Shown here: piece after piece, positions 49,707 to 57,571 of the stretch
Numbering within the stretch: position 1 is the stretch's first letter
How the letters are laid out: every line of letters starts with the position of its first letter
Source of the DNA: Desulfobacteraceae bacterium
GTDB taxonomy: Bacteria > Desulfobacterota > Desulfobacteria > Desulfobacterales > Desulfobacteraceae
Length of the DNA: 64,000 nt
Assembly (NCBI GenBank): GCA_024226935.1
Contig: JAAELK010000505.1
Location: forward strand, 1-64,000
Reading direction: 5' to 3'
Program-made: the position numbers and the translations under genes
The notes under the pieces: generated by a model
Database searches by the model: none
What the model saw: the letters and a program-made list of their open reading frames with translations, nothing else
Told to the model about the DNA's origin: nothing

Positions 49707-50135
49707 TTAAGTTTTTTCCATTCTGGGAGGGAGTACCAGGGCCGTTCCTGTTAGCACCATTGTGCCATCCTGTTTTGTGCAGGTGGTCTTTAAGGATATT
49801 CTGTTTTTCACTTTATCAATTTCAATTATTTCAACCCTTGCTTTAACGGTATCACCAAATAGGACAGGTGCCAAAAACTTTAAATCCTGGCCCATATAGA
49901 TGGTGCCTGGTCCTGGCAGCTTTGTACCAATCACGGTAGAGATAAATCCGGCCAAAAGTATGCCGTGGGCAATTCTTTCTTTGAATATGGTCTGTTTTGC
50001 ATACTCTTTGTCGATATGGGCAGGGTTTAAATCACCTGTGATTCCTGCAAAAGTATAGACATCGGATTCAGAAATTGTTTTTGTGAACTCAGCCCAATTA
50101 CCGATTTCTAATTCATTAATACTTTTTCCAATCAT
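49707..50135 (-). CDS. phaJ: (R)-specific enoyl-CoA hydratase, MaoC/PhaJ type
   Basis: A 142-residue hot-dog-fold hydratase of normal PhaJ length. The hydratase-2 motif with catalytic Asp and His is present (TGDLNPAHIDKEYA, then RIAHGILLAGFISTVIG). It converts trans-2-enoyl-CoA into (R)-3-hydroxyacyl-CoA, the substrate of PHA synthase. Its start lies 17 bases after the phaC stop. This supplies PHA monomers straight from the beta-oxidation intermediates produced by genes elsewhere in the window, with no need for PhaB. Confidence 0.92.
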   Translation of the reverse strand: MIGKSINELEIGNWAEFTKTISESDVYTFAGITGDLNPAHIDKEYAKQTIFKERIAHGILLAGFISTVIGTKLPGPGTIYMGQDLKFLAPVLFGDTVKARVEIIEIDKVKNRISLKTTCTKQDGTMVLTGTALVLPPRMEKT

Positions 50136-50152
50136 GGTAGATTCCTTTTTAA

Positions 50153-51211
50153 TTAATTTTCCCTTTGTTTGAGCCAGCTTGCAATTTTAGGAGCAAAGGC
50201 TTTCTGGCATTTGGAACTGACATAAATACCGATATGCCCGGTGTTTAAACAGACATTGCTGGCGTCTTCAGAAGCTACTTTTTTAATTAGTTGGTCACAG
50301 GCTTCGGGCGGTACAAGGTGATCATATTTGCCAAAAAAGTTTAAAAGCGGCATGGTGATATTATTCAGATCTATCCTTTTACCATCAACCTCCATTTTAC
50401 TTTGAATAAGAAGATTGTTTTTATAACAATCGTTTATAAATTGTTCAAAAGTGGCCCCGGGAAGATCTGGACTGTCAAAAATCCACTGTTCCATTCTGAC
50501 AAAATTCTCAACAAAATCAGTGTCCTCTATATTGTTGATAAAACCCACATATTTATCGATCATCAAACGTGCAGGATTTAGGAGGAGAAAACCAAGATTC
50601 ATTATATCTCCAGGCATATTTTTGTAGTGTTTTCCCAGTAATTCAGCACCGATATTTTTCATCCAGATGTGGAGTAATCCCTTATCTGTATCAAAACTTG
50701 TGGGGGTTACGCTTGTCACAAGATTTTTAACTTTTTCTGGATAAAGTGCCGCATATATTGTTGAGAAAGTTCCACCCATGCAGATTCCCATGAGATTAAT
50801 TTTGGGTATTTGATCATGGCGCGCCCGGATAAAATCGACAAAGGTATCCATATAACCATTTACATGGTCCCCGATGGTCTGAAATTGATCTTTTCTAGTT
50901 GGATATCCCCATTCAACCATATATATTTCAATACCCAGTTCAAGCAAGGTTGCGATCACACTTCTTTCTGGCTGTAGATCCAGCATTGTTTCTCTGTTTA
51001 TTAATGCGTATGTTATTAAAAGTGGAATTTTGTGGGTAATCTTGTGAGGTTTATAATACTTGAGTTTTACCCTGTCCATTTCATAAACAATTTCGTGGGG
51101 CGTAACAGCAATGTCTGGCTTAAGAGGTGTGTTTAAAATGTTTGACGAATTCTGAAATTCTTCAAGTCTTGTCAAGGTATCATTGATGTGATTTTCCATT
51201 ACCTTAAGCAT
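50153..51211 (-). CDS. phaC: Class III PHA synthase, PhaC subunit
   Basis: A 352-residue alpha/beta-hydrolase-fold polymerase of the length typical for class III. The triad is C144 in MGICMGGTFS, D297 in FFGKYDHLVP and H326 in NTGHIGIYV, each five residues lower than in Allochromatium PhaC (C149/D302/H331). It polymerises (R)-3-hydroxyacyl-CoA on granules together with PhaE, whose gene lies 30 bases upstream. Confidence 0.95.
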   Translation of the reverse strand: MLKVMENHINDTLTRLEEFQNSSNILNTPLKPDIAVTPHEIVYEMDRVKLKYYKPHKITHKIPLLITYALINRETMLDLQPERSVIATLLELGIEIYMVEWGYPTRKDQFQTIGDHVNGYMDTFVDFIRARHDQIPKINLMGICMGGTFSTIYAALYPEKVKNLVTSVTPTSFDTDKGLLHIWMKNIGAELLGKHYKNMPGDIMNLGFLLLNPARLMIDKYVGFINNIEDTDFVENFVRMEQWIFDSPDLPGATFEQFINDCYKNNLLIQSKMEVDGKRIDLNNITMPLLNFFGKYDHLVPPEACDQLIKKVASEDASNVCLNTGHIGIYVSSKCQKAFAPKIASWLKQREN

Positions 51212-51241
51212 GGCTTTCCTTTCTTTTTAAGGTTTTTCTAT

Positions 51242-52375
51242 CTATTTTTTCTTTAATGCCGGTGCTGTTTTTTTTGTGGGGGCAAGCTTGTTTTCTTTTT
51301 TAATTTCAGTATTTTTGTCTGCGTACATCTTTTTAAGAAGTTCTATCTCTTTGGAAAGCTGACTTACTTTTTTAATTTCAGTATTTTTGTCTGCGTACAT
51401 CTTTTTAAGAAGTTCTATCTCCTTGGAAAGCTGACTTACTTTTTTAATTTCAGTATTTTTGTCTGCGTATACCTTTTTAAGAAGTTCTATCTCTTTGGAA
51501 AGCTGACTTACTTTTTTAATTTCAGTATTTTTGTCTGCGTACATCTTTTTAAGAAGTTCTATCTCTTTGGAAAGCTGACTTATTTTTTTAATTTCAGTAT
51601 TTTTTTCATCGTGCATCTTTCTAAGAAGTTTTATCTCTTTTGAAAGTTGACTTATCTTTTTGATTTCAGCATCTTTGTCCGGGGTCATACCTTTGTGAAG
51701 TTTGATCTCTTTGGAAAGATTTGCCAACTCTTTTTTTGTTTTATACAGATCTTTATAGACTTCATCCATTTCCTTGGCAGTGGCTATGGGCAGCCTGTCC
51801 AAGATAAGGGTGAGCACTTCGTCCCTTGCTTCCCTGGAACAAACCAGTGAATCAAGGACTTTTTTTAAGGATGTGGTGTATTCCCTTGATTTGAGCACCT
51901 CATTAAAGTGTTTCTCAAGTTGGGCAATCCAGATATCGTAATTGTCTTTTGAATTTGAATTTACCCCTTCCTTAAGTACTTTTTTTTGGATAAACAACCC
52001 TGCTTTTTCAAAGGGGATATAAAAAAGACCAAGAAGTTCCGATAGATGGGATTGAAATTGAATATTTTTATCAATTAAAGAGTTTGCTTTTTCTGTATGA
52101 AATTTAAAAAGACCCAGTTGGGGAATATTCAAAAATTTATGCAAATGTTTTATATTGTGCTCACGGAAGGAGTTGAATATATTTTTGTTAAAACCTGATG
52201 ATTTTTCATGGGCCTGGGACAAATTATCTGACATCATATTTTGAAAACTAAACATGTCTTGGATGGGAAATGCACCTGCCTGCCCGGTCATTTCAAGAAA
52301 GGGTTTCATCGTCAAATCAACCCAGGAAAAAAGGTTGTTTTTTTCATCTGTTTTTTGTTTTGCATCTTGGGTCAT
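51242..52375 (-). CDS. phaE: Class III PHA synthase, PhaE subunit, with extended repeat domain
   Basis: Start set at MTQDAKQKTDEKNN (377 residues) after AGGAGAG. Residues 1-210 are the PhaE domain (LFSWVDLTMKPFLEM, WIAQLEKHFNEVLKSREYT). Residues 215-359 consist of six tandem 24-residue units of the form KKVSQLSKEIELLKKMYAD plus KNTEI, predicted as a long coiled coil. The end (KLAPTKKTAPALKKK) is Lys/Ala/Pro-rich like histone-H1-type tails of granule-nucleoid linkers such as PhaM and PhaF. PhaE is needed for PhaC activity. The repeats could enlarge the granule surface scaffold. Known PhaE proteins vary in length at this end. Confidence 0.88.
   Translation of the reverse strand: MTQDAKQKTDEKNNLFSWVDLTMKPFLEMTGQAGAFPIQDMFSFQNMMSDNLSQAHEKSSGFNKNIFNSFREHNIKHLHKFLNIPQLGLFKFHTEKANSLIDKNIQFQSHLSELLGLFYIPFEKAGLFIQKKVLKEGVNSNSKDNYDIWIAQLEKHFNEVLKSREYTTSLKKVLDSLVCSREARDEVLTLILDRLPIATAKEMDEVYKDLYKTKKELANLSKEIKLHKGMTPDKDAEIKKISQLSKEIKLLRKMHDEKNTEIKKISQLSKEIELLKKMYADKNTEIKKVSQLSKEIELLKKVYADKNTEIKKVSQLSKEIELLKKMYADKNTEIKKVSQLSKEIELLKKMYADKNTEIKKENKLAPTKKTAPALKKK
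51301..51732. repeat. Six 72-bp tandem repeats inside phaE
   Basis: The period is exactly 72 bases (the shared TAATTTCAG start recurs at 51301, 51373, 51445, 51517, 51589, and as TGATTTCAG at 51661). The first four units from the left are nearly identical; the two rightmost (N-terminal in the protein) are progressively diverged. This points to recent expansion from one side by slippage or unequal exchange. Confidence 0.95.
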
Positions 52376-52717
52376 AATTTCTCTCCTTTTTTTGATTTGT
52401 GAATTTGGCAATCTGCATATGATGCATGGTAATGCGCAATAAATAAAACAAGGAAAACATACTATTGAAAAGATCAAAAGAAAATCAGCCGACATATATA
52501 AAAATCAAACAAATCCAATCTGAAGATAAAAGAGCAGATTGAAATAAAAACTAAAAAAAATCATAAGAATGGGGTCGACGTTTATAATTTATCTTGTCGA
52601 GGAAATAAAGAATATATAACTTGAGAAATATTTTCCTGGACCTGACCCCAAAATCATCCATATCGAAAATAGAAATAATTTTATTACAAGGTTTCTATCA
52701 TGGTATTAATTAATAAG
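52376..52717. other. Intergenic stretch upstream of phaE
   Basis: About 340 bases between phaE and the second synthase-like gene, both minus strand. It contains the GGGGTC...GACCCC-bounded element at 52571-52649, listed separately, and AT-rich sequence that may hold the phaE promoter. No gene is seen. Confidence 0.4.
52571..52649. repeat. Possible REP-like element bounded by GGGGTC/GACCCC
   Basis: GGGGTCGACG (52571) and CCTGACCCCA (to 52650) face each other as inverted ends about 80 bases apart, with an AT-rich interior. The CTGACCCC/GGGGTCAG end recalls short palindromic repeats associated with RAYT transposases in Deltaproteobacteria. A related GGGGTCAGG occurs at about 57690. No transposase is nearby. 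Confidence 0.35.
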
Positions 52718-54283
52718 CTATAATTTTTTTTTATTTATTTGATCATTGAGATCAAGGTGAAATTTGACCGGTCCTCGGCAATTATTATTTGGGAATGTTT
52801 TATCCAATGCATATTCCGAATCCGGATGGGAAAAGGATGTGGCAATTGCCAAATGTCCTTTGGGAAAAGGAGTCACCTCAATATCAAGGAAATCCATTGG
52901 TGCTAATGCTGCTTCTTTTTCGACCAATTGGTCGTCTTCGCCATAACAGACCAACCAGGGAATTTTTTTTTCTTTTATTTTTTTAAAATTTAATTTTTTG
53001 CCAAATAATTTTACCGGTAAAGTTCCGTCATCCTTGACCGGAATAGTATAGGAGTCAAAGCTCATCTTCGCGACAGACAATGGGATGTCAGTGCGCTCAT
53101 ATTTGAGCCAATAATTTAATGCCGCAGCGGTTTTACTGATTTTAACAGGTTTATTTTTTTTAGGAGTCACCATAAAAAGATCCCGGATCAAATAAACCAT
53201 GGGTCCCTCTTCTTCAATACTTTTCAAGCGATACACCCATCCCATTAAATTTCCATCTGCTATCTTGTTTCCGTTGGGAAGCATTTTAGTACCATAGACA
53301 AGGTTGTTAAATCTGGTTGGCAAAGAGTTTAAAAAACCATGAAGTCTTTTGCTTCTTGTGCCATCCATCGGTGATACACAGGTTATAAGGCCATCTACTA
53401 ACCCGTCAAGCTTATCAGATAAAATATTGCATACTGCTGAAAATCCACCCTGGCAATATCCGTTTAATGTGATCATCTTTCCATGTTTGAGTTTTATTTT
53501 TTCACAAAAAAACCGGGTATCAAGGGCATCGTCTTCCATGGTTAGAACCTGAAATGCCGGGGTCGTATGAATGTCTTTATTGATACGTATATAGGTTGGA
53601 ATACCCATGTTTGCAAAAAAATGAGCATAACTTTTATTTTCCCTGGGAAGGAAGGCAAGGACATTAGGTCCAAGAACGTAGGGAGGAAGCATGAGCACTG
53701 GTTTGCAGCTGTTATCAATTTTGATTTTCTTATCTGTCGGCATTATCTGATATAGAAAAAATCGATCTGTTTCTGCAATTTTAATATTTTTATTTTTTTC
53801 AAAGTGAAATCCAAACTCAGGTTCTATATCCAAAATAGCTTGGGGATAAAGCGATGCTAAAACATGTAACATCTCTGATTGACGCTTGAGAAATTCATCG
53901 TAGGATTCGTCACCGGGATCAAATATTTTTTTATACAGGGATTGAAAGCCTGTAATTAATTCTTTTTCGTTATATTCATTAAGGGCGTTCATGCTTCCCG
54001 AGGCCATTTTTGAATAAAGATCAAGATTGAATTTTAAAAGCTCCATATACGAATTGTAGCTGTCCAAGGGAGGTTCGTTTATAATCCTTTCTATTTCAAT
54101 ATCTCTGAAATATTCAGTGGAAACTAAAAATGGGAAAATAAAATCGGTATTATATTGTGAGATGGAGGTAAATAAATTTGCAACTGCATTTGACTGGTTT
54201 ACAGAAAACTTCATATGTGACATCAGATAGTTTATCTGTTCTTTAAAAGCAAAAAGTTTTATTCCTGAATTCCATTGATTCAT
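52718..54283 (-). CDS. Second PHA synthase-like alpha/beta hydrolase
   Basis: A 521-residue protein with the PHA-synthase-type nucleophile elbow LNGYCQGGFSAV (C277), acid D450/D451 in CYGEDDQLV and H477 in FPKGHLAIATS. It is longer than class III PhaC and unlike class I/II PhaC at both ends: the N-terminal 190 residues are helical. It lies in the PHA cluster between phaE and the phasin-like gene. It may be a divergent synthase, a depolymerase using Cys, or an accessory granule protein. I do not know a characterised relative. Confidence 0.75.
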   Translation of the reverse strand: MNQWNSGIKLFAFKEQINYLMSHMKFSVNQSNAVANLFTSISQYNTDFIFPFLVSTEYFRDIEIERIINEPPLDSYNSYMELLKFNLDLYSKMASGSMNALNEYNEKELITGFQSLYKKIFDPGDESYDEFLKRQSEMLHVLASLYPQAILDIEPEFGFHFEKNKNIKIAETDRFFLYQIMPTDKKIKIDNSCKPVLMLPPYVLGPNVLAFLPRENKSYAHFFANMGIPTYIRINKDIHTTPAFQVLTMEDDALDTRFFCEKIKLKHGKMITLNGYCQGGFSAVCNILSDKLDGLVDGLITCVSPMDGTRSKRLHGFLNSLPTRFNNLVYGTKMLPNGNKIADGNLMGWVYRLKSIEEEGPMVYLIRDLFMVTPKKNKPVKISKTAAALNYWLKYERTDIPLSVAKMSFDSYTIPVKDDGTLPVKLFGKKLNFKKIKEKKIPWLVCYGEDDQLVEKEAALAPMDFLDIEVTPFPKGHLAIATSFSHPDSEYALDKTFPNNNCRGPVKFHLDLNDQINKKKL

Positions 54284-54309
54284 TTTAATTTCTCCTGCCA
54301 GAACAACTA

Positions 54310-54342
54310 AAAATGCCGGGGGATAATTCCCACCGGCATTTT
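54310..54342 (-). terminator. Intrinsic terminator after the phasin-like gene
   Basis: AAAATGCCGG (54310-54319) and CCGGCATTTT (54333-54342), perfect 10-bp stem, extended inside by GGG/CCC. In the minus-strand sense it ends in TTTT and lies 15 bases past the phasin-like stop. It also precedes the second synthase-like gene, so read-through would allow weaker expression of that gene. Confidence 0.75.
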
Positions 54343-54356
54343 AAAATTTAATTAAT

Positions 54357-54650
54357 TTAACTGTGTTTTCCCTTTGGGGTCGGTTTTGTTCCATCTTTTC
54401 CAACAAGACCTTGGAGCATTTCAAAATTAGCATCAACAGCTTCTTTTAAATTTTGTCTGTTGGTCTTATATGTTTCTGTCCAGTCGGACATAATTTTTTT
54501 TTGGTCCTTGGGGATTAACTGGTTTTGTTCCAGGGAGGCACTTAAAAGTTTTTCCCCTTGCTCTTGAAGGCCTACGACTGCATCAAAAGTATTGGTAAAA
54601 GCAGTTTTCTGAAAATTGATCATTTGTCCAAAGATTTTCTGGTGTTCCAT
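54357..54650 (-). CDS. Phasin-like granule protein
   Basis: Start set at MEHQKIFGQM (97 residues), after AAAGGAGAAG. It is all helical, without Cys, amphipathic, with FQKTAFTNTFDAVVGLQEQG and VDANFEMLQGL typical of phasin_2/PhaP-like proteins that coat PHA granules. The end is basic (KPTPKGKHS). It is divergent from phaR, as phaP often is, with a promoter that carries a TGC-rich motif. Family membership rests on these general features and on context. Confidence 0.75.
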   Translation of the reverse strand: MEHQKIFGQMINFQKTAFTNTFDAVVGLQEQGEKLLSASLEQNQLIPKDQKKIMSDWTETYKTNRQNLKEAVDANFEMLQGLVGKDGTKPTPKGKHS

Positions 54651-54713
54651 GATTCTTCTCCTTTCGATTTTAAAGAAATAGGTGGGGGAATCCCACACTG
54701 TATTACGCCGCTA

Positions 54714-54765
54714 AGAATAAACATGGGAAAAATATTTGTCAACAAAAAAATGTTGCACTGCACAA
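54714..54765 (-). promoter_or_regulatory. Phasin promoter and putative PhaR site
   Basis: Minus strand: -35 TTGACA (54742-54737), 17-base spacer, -10 TATTCT (54719-54714). Upstream lies TTGCACTGCACAA (54753-54765). A related TGCTGCACT (54816-54824) sits between the -35 (TTGACA, 54803-54808) and -10 (TATAAC, 54824-54829) of the divergent phaR promoter. TGC-rich repeats of this kind are bound by PhaR in other bacteria. Confidence 0.55.
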
Positions 54766-54860
54766 ATAAAAAAAATGTTTGATATAGGTAATACTCAATA
54801 TGTTGACATTTAAGATGCTGCACTATAACATATATTTAATTCAAATCTTAAAAGGAAAAT

Positions 54861-55313
54861 ATACCCATTAAAAGATATATTAAAAAATATCCCAACCGAC
54901 GGTTATACGATACGAAAAAAAGCACTTATATTTCGTTGATGGATCTGGCAGATCTCATAAGAAGCGGGGAGAAGGTAGAGGTGTTGGATATTAAAACAGG
55001 TGCGGACGTGACCTCCTTTGTTTTAACCCAGATTTTGATGAATAAGGCCAAAGATGCCAATGCTCTTTTGCCTGTTTCGTTACTTCATATAATTATACAA
55101 TTTGGAGAGAATGATCTCCATGATTTTTTTGAAAACTATCTTGAAAAGAGCATAGAAAATTATCTGTTATTCAGGAAAAAAATGGATGAGCAATTAACTA
55201 CTTATATGGAAATGGGAACAGAATTTTCAAATCTGACGGAAAAAATATTCAAGAGTTTTGATCTTTCCAATTCGACATCAGATGTTTCGGGACAAAAGGA
55301 TGGGGGTACTTAA
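54861..55313 (+). CDS. phaR: PHA accumulation regulator PhaR with non-standard start codon
   Basis: The PHB/PHA DNA-binding domain reads from KRYIKKYPNRRLYDTKKS to YISLMDLADLIRSG, with the remainder a helical PHB_acc domain (about 150 residues in all). The domain starts upstream of the first in-frame TTG/ATG (54936/54939). The only candidates between the stop at 54849 and the domain are ATA at 54861 and ATT at 54867, behind AAAAGGAAA. ATT initiation is known for infC. A point mutation in ATG is the alternative. PhaR binds PHA and its own and phasin promoters as a repressor. It is divergent from the phasin-like gene. Confidence 0.85.
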   Translation: MPIKRYIKKYPNRRLYDTKKSTYISLMDLADLIRSGEKVEVLDIKTGADVTSFVLTQILMNKAKDANALLPVSLLHIIIQFGENDLHDFFENYLEKSIENYLLFRKKMDEQLTTYMEMGTEFSNLTEKIFKSFDLSNSTSDVSGQKDGGT

Positions 55314-55354
55314 ATTGTAATTTCACCCAATATCAGGATTACACGGGGGAAAAG

Positions 55355-57571
55355 ATGATGGAGCAACAGCAATCTATTGCAGAGCTTTTCGGGGTCGGCA
55401 TTTTCAATAATGCCTGGGAATACCTTGATGACGTATGGCAGCGATCAATCTTGTTCATGGATATCTTAAGAAAGCGGGGAAACATTTATCATGAACAGAT
55501 TGCCAGGAATAATCCGCCGGTTCTTACCTTTGATTACAAAATTGTCATGGACGGAAGGGAATTTGACATACCTGTTAACTTTGCCCTGGTCAAGATTATA
55601 GATCGCAGGAAACAGGCGGTATTTAAAAAACAGGACAACGAAAATCGTAAAGTTGTTCAGGTGGAAGAACTGACCCGGGTGAGCAAATCAAAGCGCCGCC
55701 CCATTGTGATCATCGATCCAAGGGCTGGTCACGGTCCTGGGATTGGTGGTTCTAAAAGGGATTCTGAGATCGGTGTCGCACTGACTTTGGGTCATCCCGT
55801 TTATTTTTTCCTTTTCTTTCCCGATCCTGAACCCGGCCAGACCATGGCCGATGTTCAGCGCTGTCAGATTCGGTTCATCCAGGAAATAAACCGCCTTCAT
55901 CCGGATGCAGATAAACCGGCTCTCATTGGTAATTGTCAGGGTGGCTGGGCATCGGCCCTGATTGGAGCCGATCGGCCGGATATCATAGGTCCCCTTGTGT
56001 TTAACGGTTCTCCCCTTTCCTATTGGGCCGGCGTTGAAGGTGAAAACCCCATGCGTTATAAGGGGGGGCTTGTCGGAGGAACCTGGATGGCTTCTCTCTG
56101 GAGTGATCTGGGTGGTGGAAAATTTGACGGGGCAAATCTTGTGTCTGGGTTTGAAGACTTAAATCCTGCAAATACTTTATGGACTAAACAATATAACCTT
56201 TATTCCAAGGTGGATACCGAGGAGAAACGCTACCTTGAATTTGAGCGATGGTGGAATGGTTACTATTATATGACCAAAGAGGAGATCCGTTTTATAGTGG
56301 GTAACCTCTTTGTGGGTAACCGACTTGAACAAGGTTTGCTGGAACTGGATTCAGAGACGATAATCGACTTGAAAAATATTGAGGACCCAGTTCTTTTGTT
56401 TGCCTCCAGCGGTGACAATATTACACCTCCTCAACAGGCTTTTAATTGGATCTTTAAGGTGTGGGGGTCAGTGGAGGAGCTTAAACGTAAAAATCAGGTT
56501 GTGGTATATCTTCTCCACGATACAATAGGCCATCTTGGAATCTTTGTATCGAGTAAAGTTTCGAAAAAAGAGCATCACGAGATCATCAGCAGTATAGACT
56601 TAATGGAGTATCTTAACCCGGGTCTTTATGAGATGGTGATTGCTGAGGCAAAAACATCCATTGAAGGAGACTACAAAGTCACATTTGAGGAACGGAAAAT
56701 GGCCGATATCCTAGCCCTGGACGATGGCCAGCTAAACGAAGAGGATTTTCGTGTGGTAGCAGCGGTGTCGGATTTTAACGATAAATGTTATCAAAGCTTT
56801 GTAAGTCCCTGGGTAAAGTTTTGTGTCACCGATTTTTTTGCCGAAGGATTGAGGCAGGTTAATCCCCTTCGCTTGGCATGCTATACTTTTTCCGATAAAA
56901 ATCCCTGGATGGTTCCATTTAAGCTTTGGGCTCCGGTGATAAAGGATAACCGCCGAGAGGTTTCCAAGGATAATTTATTTTTCCCCCTGGAAAAAAATAA
57001 CTCAAAAATTTGGATAGGAATGCTTGATGATTTTCGAGATTTCAGGGACGATCTACAGGAGTTTTGCTTTAGAAATATTTATGGTAACCCTTCTCTTTAT
57101 GATATTTTTGAAAACAGTATTGTAAAGACCATGGCTAAAGAAAAGATAATGAAGAGGAAAATAAGAGATAAGAATAAAAAGGAGAATGAACAAAAAATGC
57201 TTGATGCCATGGAAAAAGGTGGTTTTGTCAAGGGTATCTTTCGTTTGATGGCCCTTCTGATGAAAGAGGAATACTCCATTGAGCAGGAAGAACTCGAATA
57301 TATACGTAAGCTTGTTGTCAGCCATAATATAATGACCAACACAAGTGAAGTTGATATGAAAGAGAAGATGCATGAGCAGATGAGGCTTATAAATTTTGAT
57401 GAACAACGGGCTATCGATGCCATTCCTAAATTGATAAAGAGTCCTGAACAAAGGTTGGCGGCCATTCAGATGGCCAAAGCCCTGGCCGAGATAGATTTTG
57501 TTGTCACCGGTGATGCGGCTAAGATTATAAAGAAGATCGAAGTTCTGCTGGATGATAAAAAAACATTGTAA
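55355..57571 (+). CDS. DUF3141 protein, PHA synthase-like hydrolase with TerB-like end
   Basis: A 738-residue protein. Residues 50-470 are an alpha/beta-hydrolase domain with nucleophile C194 in LIGNCQGGWAS, D354 in ASSGDNITPP and H393 in DTIGHLGIFVSS, the same triad layout as PhaC. Residues 470-620 are specific to DUF3141. Residues 625-738 are helical with a TerB-like look (GGFVKGIFRLMALLM, EQRLAAIQMAKALAEID). The function of DUF3141 proteins is not established to my knowledge. Linkage to phaR (41-base gap, same strand) and the PHA genes points to polymer synthesis, mobilisation or granule remodelling. Confidence 0.85.
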   Translation: MMEQQQSIAELFGVGIFNNAWEYLDDVWQRSILFMDILRKRGNIYHEQIARNNPPVLTFDYKIVMDGREFDIPVNFALVKIIDRRKQAVFKKQDNENRKVVQVEELTRVSKSKRRPIVIIDPRAGHGPGIGGSKRDSEIGVALTLGHPVYFFLFFPDPEPGQTMADVQRCQIRFIQEINRLHPDADKPALIGNCQGGWASALIGADRPDIIGPLVFNGSPLSYWAGVEGENPMRYKGGLVGGTWMASLWSDLGGGKFDGANLVSGFEDLNPANTLWTKQYNLYSKVDTEEKRYLEFERWWNGYYYMTKEEIRFIVGNLFVGNRLEQGLLELDSETIIDLKNIEDPVLLFASSGDNITPPQQAFNWIFKVWGSVEELKRKNQVVVYLLHDTIGHLGIFVSSKVSKKEHHEIISSIDLMEYLNPGLYEMVIAEAKTSIEGDYKVTFEERKMADILALDDGQLNEEDFRVVAAVSDFNDKCYQSFVSPWVKFCVTDFFAEGLRQVNPLRLACYTFSDKNPWMVPFKLWAPVIKDNRREVSKDNLFFPLEKNNSKIWIGMLDDFRDFRDDLQEFCFRNIYGNPSLYDIFENSIVKTMAKEKIMKRKIRDKNKKENEQKMLDAMEKGGFVKGIFRLMALLMKEEYSIEQEELEYIRKLVVSHNIMTNTSEVDMKEKMHEQMRLINFDEQRAIDAIPKLIKSPEQRLAAIQMAKALAEIDFVVTGDAAKIIKKIEVLLDDKKTL

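Follow-up and report, generated by a model that had tools for sequence, protein, structure and literature searches.

Why would a single PHA locus in a sulfate-reducer genome carry, beside an ordinary synthase, two further proteins of the PhaC superfamily? The question arises from the window analyzed here, a stretch of 64,000 nucleotides from a Desulfobacteraceae bacterium. PHA storage is established in sulfate reducers, specifically in Desulfococcus multivorans (Hai et al. 2004, as cited in PMC9957297). The locus runs, on the minus strand, in the order phasin-like gene, X521, phaE, phaC, and phaJ, with phaR and the DUF3141 gene on the plus strand, and its genes are as follows:

49707 to 50135, minus strand: phaJ, a MaoC-type (R)-enoyl-CoA hydratase (PF01575, 1.3e-24, score 86.6 against a cut-off of 27).
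50153 to 51211, minus strand: phaC, the class III PHA synthase catalytic subunit (TIGR01836, 384.4 bits; cut-off, 365.3).
51242 to 52495, minus strand: phaE, the class III synthase partner subunit (PF09712, 6.4e-15, score 55.7 against 25.7).
52718 to 54283, minus strand: X521, a 521-residue PhaC-like alpha/beta hydrolase with a helical N-terminal region.
54357 to 54698, minus strand: a phasin-like granule protein gene.
54867 to 55313, plus strand: phaR, the PHA synthesis regulator (PF07879, 5e-10, score 39.8 against 25; TIGR01848, 3e-17; both taken on a shorter TTG-start ORF).
55355 to 57571, plus strand: the DUF3141 protein, 738 residues, PhaC superfamily (PF11339, 757 bits against 29.7).

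The first-pass annotation had described one PHA locus in which three CxGG-type hydrolases, each with a Cys-Asp-His triad, accompany phaE, phaJ, phaR, and a phasin-like gene, and the genes and residues lie where it placed them; X521 and the DUF3141 protein do fall, as it held, outside every textbook PHA step. The synthase itself belongs to class III PhaEC, with PhaC above the TIGR01836 cut-off and PhaE adjacent. The window PhaC has the elbow GICMGG and the triad C144, D297, and H326, and its PDB relatives are 5hz2, 5t6o, and 9knj. PhaE reaches 42.6 of 155 bits with TIGR01834, probably starts at Met41 (about 52375), and contains a 72-bp x 5.9 tandem repeat (51295-51718, TRF), while the best NCBIfam match of PhaJ is the MaoC half of the MaoC-phosphate acetyltransferase subfamily NF006045. 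Curated phasin models in Pfam and NCBIfam do not match the phasin-like gene, which is so labeled because of its length, its position, and its recurrence in relatives as one or two copies of 85-110 aa; its start is probably the internal Met of MEHQKIFGQMINFQK. For phaR, ATG, GTG, and TTG are all absent ahead of residue 24 of the PhaR domain, and the only possible starts are ATT at 54867 or ATA at 54861, with the in-frame upstream KRYIKKYPNRRLYDT read directly. The DUF3141 gene follows phaR after a gap of 41 bp.

Of the two additional proteins, X521 is the more elusive in simple searches. It passes no Pfam or NCBIfam cut-off (at best, 18 bits for Abhydrolase_1 and 24.4 of 365.3 bits for TIGR01836), has no match to PhaC_N (PF07167), and does not reach the PhaC class models (TIGR01836/1838/1839); phmmer and profile searches of PDB sequences returned nothing real for either X521 or DUF3141. 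Although such searches miss PhaC, the homology of X521 to PhaC is well supported, because fold and profile comparisons agree. Specifically, hhalign aligned X521 with PhaC over the entire catalytic domain when PhaC I and III were combined in one profile (97.2 percent, E 4.6e-11); against PhaC-III alone, X521 reached 57 percent and DUF3141 98.5 percent, making DUF3141 the closer of the two. All of the first 15 Foldseek ranks for the AlphaFold2 model of X521 (pLDDT 77, 19 sequences in the alignment) are PHA synthases, and by this search the model has the PhaC fold, including the CAP domain. Entries comprising only the catalytic domain gave TM scores of 0.53-0.56 by target length at about 6-9 A rmsd, and over its full length the model deviates by about 20 A rmsd, so the placement of its domains is uncertain.

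The active site tells the same story at the level of residues. In profile alignments, X521 C277 (codon 53453-53455), D451, and H477, with the elbow GYCQGG, pair with PhaC C144, D297, and H326; they are identical in 94/94 homologues, and the CAP-domain tryptophan, W392, is kept in 87/87. This conservation across homologues means that the observation is not due to chance. X521 is thus a PhaC-superfamily member with an intact Cys-Asp-His triad and, because that triad is invariant, is probably catalytic. Two features described around the PhaC active site and dimer interface (Chek et al., PMC5509742) are missing. First, in our reading of the alignments, the Asn-Lys/Arg pair after the beta4 Pro-Pro (PhaC_Cs N220-K221) is replaced by LG. 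Second, the His after the catalytic Asp (PhaC_Cs H448) is Asp in 83 of 87 homologues and Gln in the window. The notion of a phasin fused to PhaC was rejected for X521, its N-terminal region being unrelated by profile to PhaE, to phasins, or to Xp, a small protein considered below. As far as Pfam and NCBIfam go, X521 appears to be an undescribed family, an earlier description in the subscription literature being possible.

The distribution of X521 ties it to PHA storage across a phylum. A scan of 84,980 species genomes yielded 185 contigs or coding stretches with X521, and the best 80 of these 185 records are all titled Desulfobacterales, Desulfobulbales, Syntrophaceae, Deltaproteobacteria, or similar; none was found in the plasmids searched. 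The gene is present in 20 of the 86 genomes from the bacterial family and 19 of the 296 from the phylum. Rather than lying consistently away from PHA genes, X521 sits near a divergent phaR and usually with phaEC. Of the 88 X521 genes whose loci we inspected, 69 follow a same-strand phasin gene that lies no more than 500 bp upstream, and the loci include phaR in 65 cases, phaC in 60, phaE in 55, phaJ in 42, and DUF3141 in 14. The co-occurrence that the first-pass annotation had proposed as a check is borne out among the 86 family genomes, where X521 is accompanied by PhaC-III in 18/20 (Fisher 1.5e-13; the remaining two genomes are 69 and 72 percent complete) and by DUF3141 in 17/20, and DUF3141 by PhaC-III in 17/19 (Fisher 2e-12). 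Across the phylum, 17/19 X521 genomes have any PhaC (Fisher 5e-14). Shared ancestry of the genomes means that these p-values overstate independence; the pattern nonetheless recurs in several genera. X521 and DUF3141 are conserved parts of a Desulfobacterota PHA-granule locus.

DUF3141 brings more history with it. Its match to PF11339 is full-length (profile positions 1-576 of 582), and its triad, C194, D354, and H393 with the elbow GNCQGG, is identical in 9/9 homologues and pairs with that of PhaC (hhalign, 97 to 98.5 percent); the structure model had a pLDDT of 49.5, and the fold search based on it was disregarded. The first-pass annotation had treated the protein as unaccounted for, but its presence at PHA loci is not new (PMC8601165, PMC8050969, PMC8231600) and is already known from Pseudomonas, Burkholderiales, and rhizobia. 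In Pseudomonas umsongensis GO16, it adjoins phasin and phaR (PMC8601165), and in Jeongeupia, it is listed as a phaZ (PMC8050969). Arrangements reported as phaC-pta-ack-fabI in Burkholderia (PMC8231600) and phaC2-pta-ackA in Herbaspirillum (PMC8222739), together with a phosphate-starvation operon of Sinorhizobium (cited in PMC8222739), match the order that we found on a Sinorhizobium pSymA (DUF3141-phosphate acetyltransferase-fabI) and in the relative L126 (DUF3141, MaoC-phosphotransacylase, kinase, and two FabI-like reductases); from this gene order, we infer that the phaC genes of the Burkholderia and Herbaspirillum operons encode DUF3141 proteins. By gene order, PhbX of Pseudomonas extremaustralis is probably a DUF3141 homologue as well. 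Encoded in a phasin cluster, this 93.5-kDa protein binds to granules, shares 62 percent identity with a putative depolymerase, and failed to rescue PHA synthesis in a synthase mutant (PMC4041789). Nearer to the window, phaR, phaJ, and DUF3141 are contiguous in eight relatives.

How, then, is the stored polymer mobilized? The intracellular Cys-type PHB depolymerase PhaZ is a PhaC-related Cys hydrolase acting on granules. No PhaZ (TIGR01849) exceeded its cut-off in any of the 86 family genomes, nor did the short-chain intracellular depolymerase NF050089 in 10 genomes, and the mobilizing step is therefore without a known enzyme in the family genomes searched. X521 and DUF3141 themselves do not match these PhaZ models up to E 0.01. 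Because of this gap, and because PhaC is near-obligatory in X521 genomes, we favor, at a probability of roughly 45%, a reading in which X521 and DUF3141 serve polymer turnover as Cys-acyltransferases bound to the granule. They would work on chains that PhaEC has already polymerized: the active-site Cys would take over a polymer or oligomer as a thioester and pass it on either to CoA, in a thiolysis that reverses the synthase reaction, or to water, and the resulting 3-hydroxyacyl-CoA or acid would go to oxidation. That PHA synthases can cleave polymer is known from the alcoholysis carried out by PhaRC (PMC8878867). DUF3141 may feed PhaJ, because the two are contiguous with phaR in relatives. 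Other DUF3141 operons have a MaoC-phosphotransacylase fusion, acetate kinase, and FabI alongside, and a plausible chain there would run from 3-hydroxybutyryl-CoA through crotonyl-CoA, butyryl-CoA, and acyl phosphate to ATP. X521, beside phasins, could be a mobilizing or chain-length-controlling enzyme of the granule surface.

We counted several observations for turnover: X521 is nearly always additional to a synthase, with phasin, phaR, and phaC nearby; it is without the Asn-Lys/Arg pair and post-Asp His of PhaC; PhbX is granule-bound and non-complementing; and DUF3141 has the operon neighbors just described. Counted against it were that the structures closest to X521 are those of synthases, not depolymerases; that two genomes (G157 and G115) have X521 without a detectable PhaC, where a depolymerase with no synthase would be hard to explain; and that a small PhaE-like protein is encoded just behind X521 in many cases, which would suit a two-subunit synthase. 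Nor can X521 and DUF3141 be universal depolymerases, because 18 of the 32 PhaC-III genomes in the phylum sample are without X521 and 14 of those 18 are also without DUF3141.

Synthesis and turnover would share the same chemistry, a Cys-bound acyl chain, and it is possible, if doubtful, that X521 is instead a PHA synthase of an unrecognized class, acting alone or with Xp, such that PhaEC and X521 make different polymers or work under different conditions. Its profile and fold similarity to PhaC, including the CAP tryptophan and the full triad, would fit such a role, as would Xp itself. This protein of 156-240 residues (51 distinct sequences; consensus MDxxFLEFWG...GVVPKxEHLxLVxKYExLKxKVAxQEETIxHLR) is encoded closely downstream of X521 in about half of the named loci, at 0-120 bp in most of them and sometimes overlapping the X521 stop codon. 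Xp has no match in Pfam or NCBIfam, and its C-terminal half aligns weakly with the PhaE signature region, through the C-terminal motif only (hhalign, E 2.4e-4, probability 44 percent). Further, two models find no PhaC in G157 (99 percent complete), which does have X521, Xp, phasin, phaR, and thiolase; G115 (94 percent complete) resembles it, with X521, Xp, phasin, phaR, thiolase or phaJ, and no detectable PhaC. However, Xp is lacking both in the window, where phaE itself follows X521, and in most of the bacterial family; the N220-K221 and H448 equivalents are missing from X521; and a PhaC is already present in nearly all X521 genomes. Our estimate for a second synthase, raised after G157, was lowered again on finding that a PhaC model is matched in 20 of the 22 X521 genomes searched for one, the exceptions being G157 and the genome of L093, whose contig equals that of G115 in length. 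That X521, with or without Xp, forms such a class across Desulfobacterota and is the sole synthase in genomes like G157 strikes us as rather unlikely.

Compared with turnover by X521, a mainly structural role is improbable. Here, X521 would be a PhaC-derived granule organizer whose Lys/Ala/Pro-rich C-terminal tail binds the nucleoid like PhaF or PhaM, with catalysis secondary. In 32 of 87 homologues the tail extends to 25 residues or more, and many of these tails are Lys/Ala/Pro-rich; phasin genes adjoin X521, and PhaM attaches PHB granules to the nucleoid (PMC3556143). However, the tail is missing in most members, that of the window included, and a triad invariant in 94/94 homologues would be needless for a scaffold. 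Hardly credible is the proposal of the first-pass annotation that X521 and DUF3141 build or degrade polymers whose monomers are unusual, for example branched hydroxy acids from the amino-acid genes of the window: the idea draws on the threonine dehydrogenase, KBL, urocanase, and BCAT genes nearby, yet these and the permease, all in the query set, adjoin X521 at 0/19 and 0/80 related loci, the conserved neighbors being phaE, phaC, phaJ, phaR, and phasins, joined at a minority of loci by SDR or thiolase, and it is without support because those genes are never neighbors in relatives.

Sulfate reducers are known to store PHA, and none of the curated models for intracellular depolymerases is matched in the family genomes searched. 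Throughout a phylum, PHA loci are linked with X521, a PhaC relative that is uncatalogued and has its triad intact. Were X521 a synthase, the four known classes would gain another; were it a thiolytic depolymerase, it would explain anaerobic PHA reuse with the CoA bond kept. Under polymer turnover, DUF3141, sometimes annotated as a synthase, would also gain a coherent role with PhaJ. Because X521 is present in the cultivable Desulfocicer vacuolatum, Desulfonema magnum, and Desulforhopalus singaporensis, its role is directly testable.

Set against known systems, X521 shares with PhaC of classes I-IV (5hz2, 5t6o, 5xav, 6k3c, 9knj) the alpha/beta hydrolase core, helical N-terminal region, G-x-C-x-G-G elbow, Cys-Asp-His triad, CAP-domain Trp, and PHA-gene surroundings. 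It differs in falling below the synthase cut-offs, in being without PhaC_N, the Asn-Lys/Arg pair, and the post-Asp His, and in usually accompanying a normal PhaC. The likeness proposed for X521 and DUF3141 is to intracellular PhaZ (TIGR01849, PF06850), likewise a PhaC-related Cys hydrolase on granules, although neither protein has a match to that family. The window DUF3141 protein is a full-length member of a family (PF11339) variously annotated as PHA synthase or "phaZ", and it sits with phaR, as in Pseudomonas umsongensis GO16. In contrast to operons of the phaC-pta-ack-fabI type, the PHA locus here is that of a sulfate reducer and has phaJ as a gene of its own in place of the MaoC-phosphotransacylase fusion. 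Finally, the window phaC and phaE are of the same kind as the class III PhaEC of Desulfococcus multivorans (Hai et al. 2004, as cited in PMC9957297), relative to which X521 and DUF3141 are additional in the window locus.

Immediately 3' of X521, the 521-residue PhaC-like protein, a number of loci in relatives carry Xp, an uncatalogued family of 156-240 aa with a PhaE-like motif at its C-terminus. Examples, among others, are as follows:

L137:8018-8623, Xp, directly downstream of X521
L132:5572-6162, Xp, directly downstream of X521

Also recurrent near X521 is a protein of ~348 aa (35 of 80 loci, L042:3197-4249 and 34 others), which by eye looks like a GAF-domain protein; none was seen in the window region.

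The window's own phaE contains a tandem repeat at 51295-51718 (72-bp unit, 5.9 copies, 90 percent identity), which encodes about six coiled-coil-like repeats of 24 residues in a PhaE of 417 residues, compared with ~300 in relatives. For phaR, a reading of the sequence at 54861-54936 found no ATG, GTG or TTG ahead of domain residue 24, and the only possible starts for the conserved N-terminus, KRYIKKYPNRRLYDT, are ATT at 54867 or ATA at 54861, with AAGG upstream. Either phaR begins here with a seldom-used codon, or the sequence contains an error.

Two further loci lie beyond the window:

L122:2104-3894, on C507, a different contig of the window's own genome, a 597-aa protein that is the fourth PhaC-like one there and scores 91 bits against TIGR01836, the class III PhaC model
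L126:2375-8905, an operon in a relative, with DUF3141, a MaoC-phosphotransacylase, a gene resembling acetate kinase and a pair of FabI-like reductases

The latter operon possibly provides an ATP-yielding route starting at 3-hydroxybutyryl-CoA.

Finally, 32 of 87 X521 homologues have at least 25 extra C-terminal residues, and the long Lys/Ala/Pro-rich tails found in L023, L025, L034, L107, L111 and others may be likened to the nucleoid-binding tails of PhaF and PhaM.
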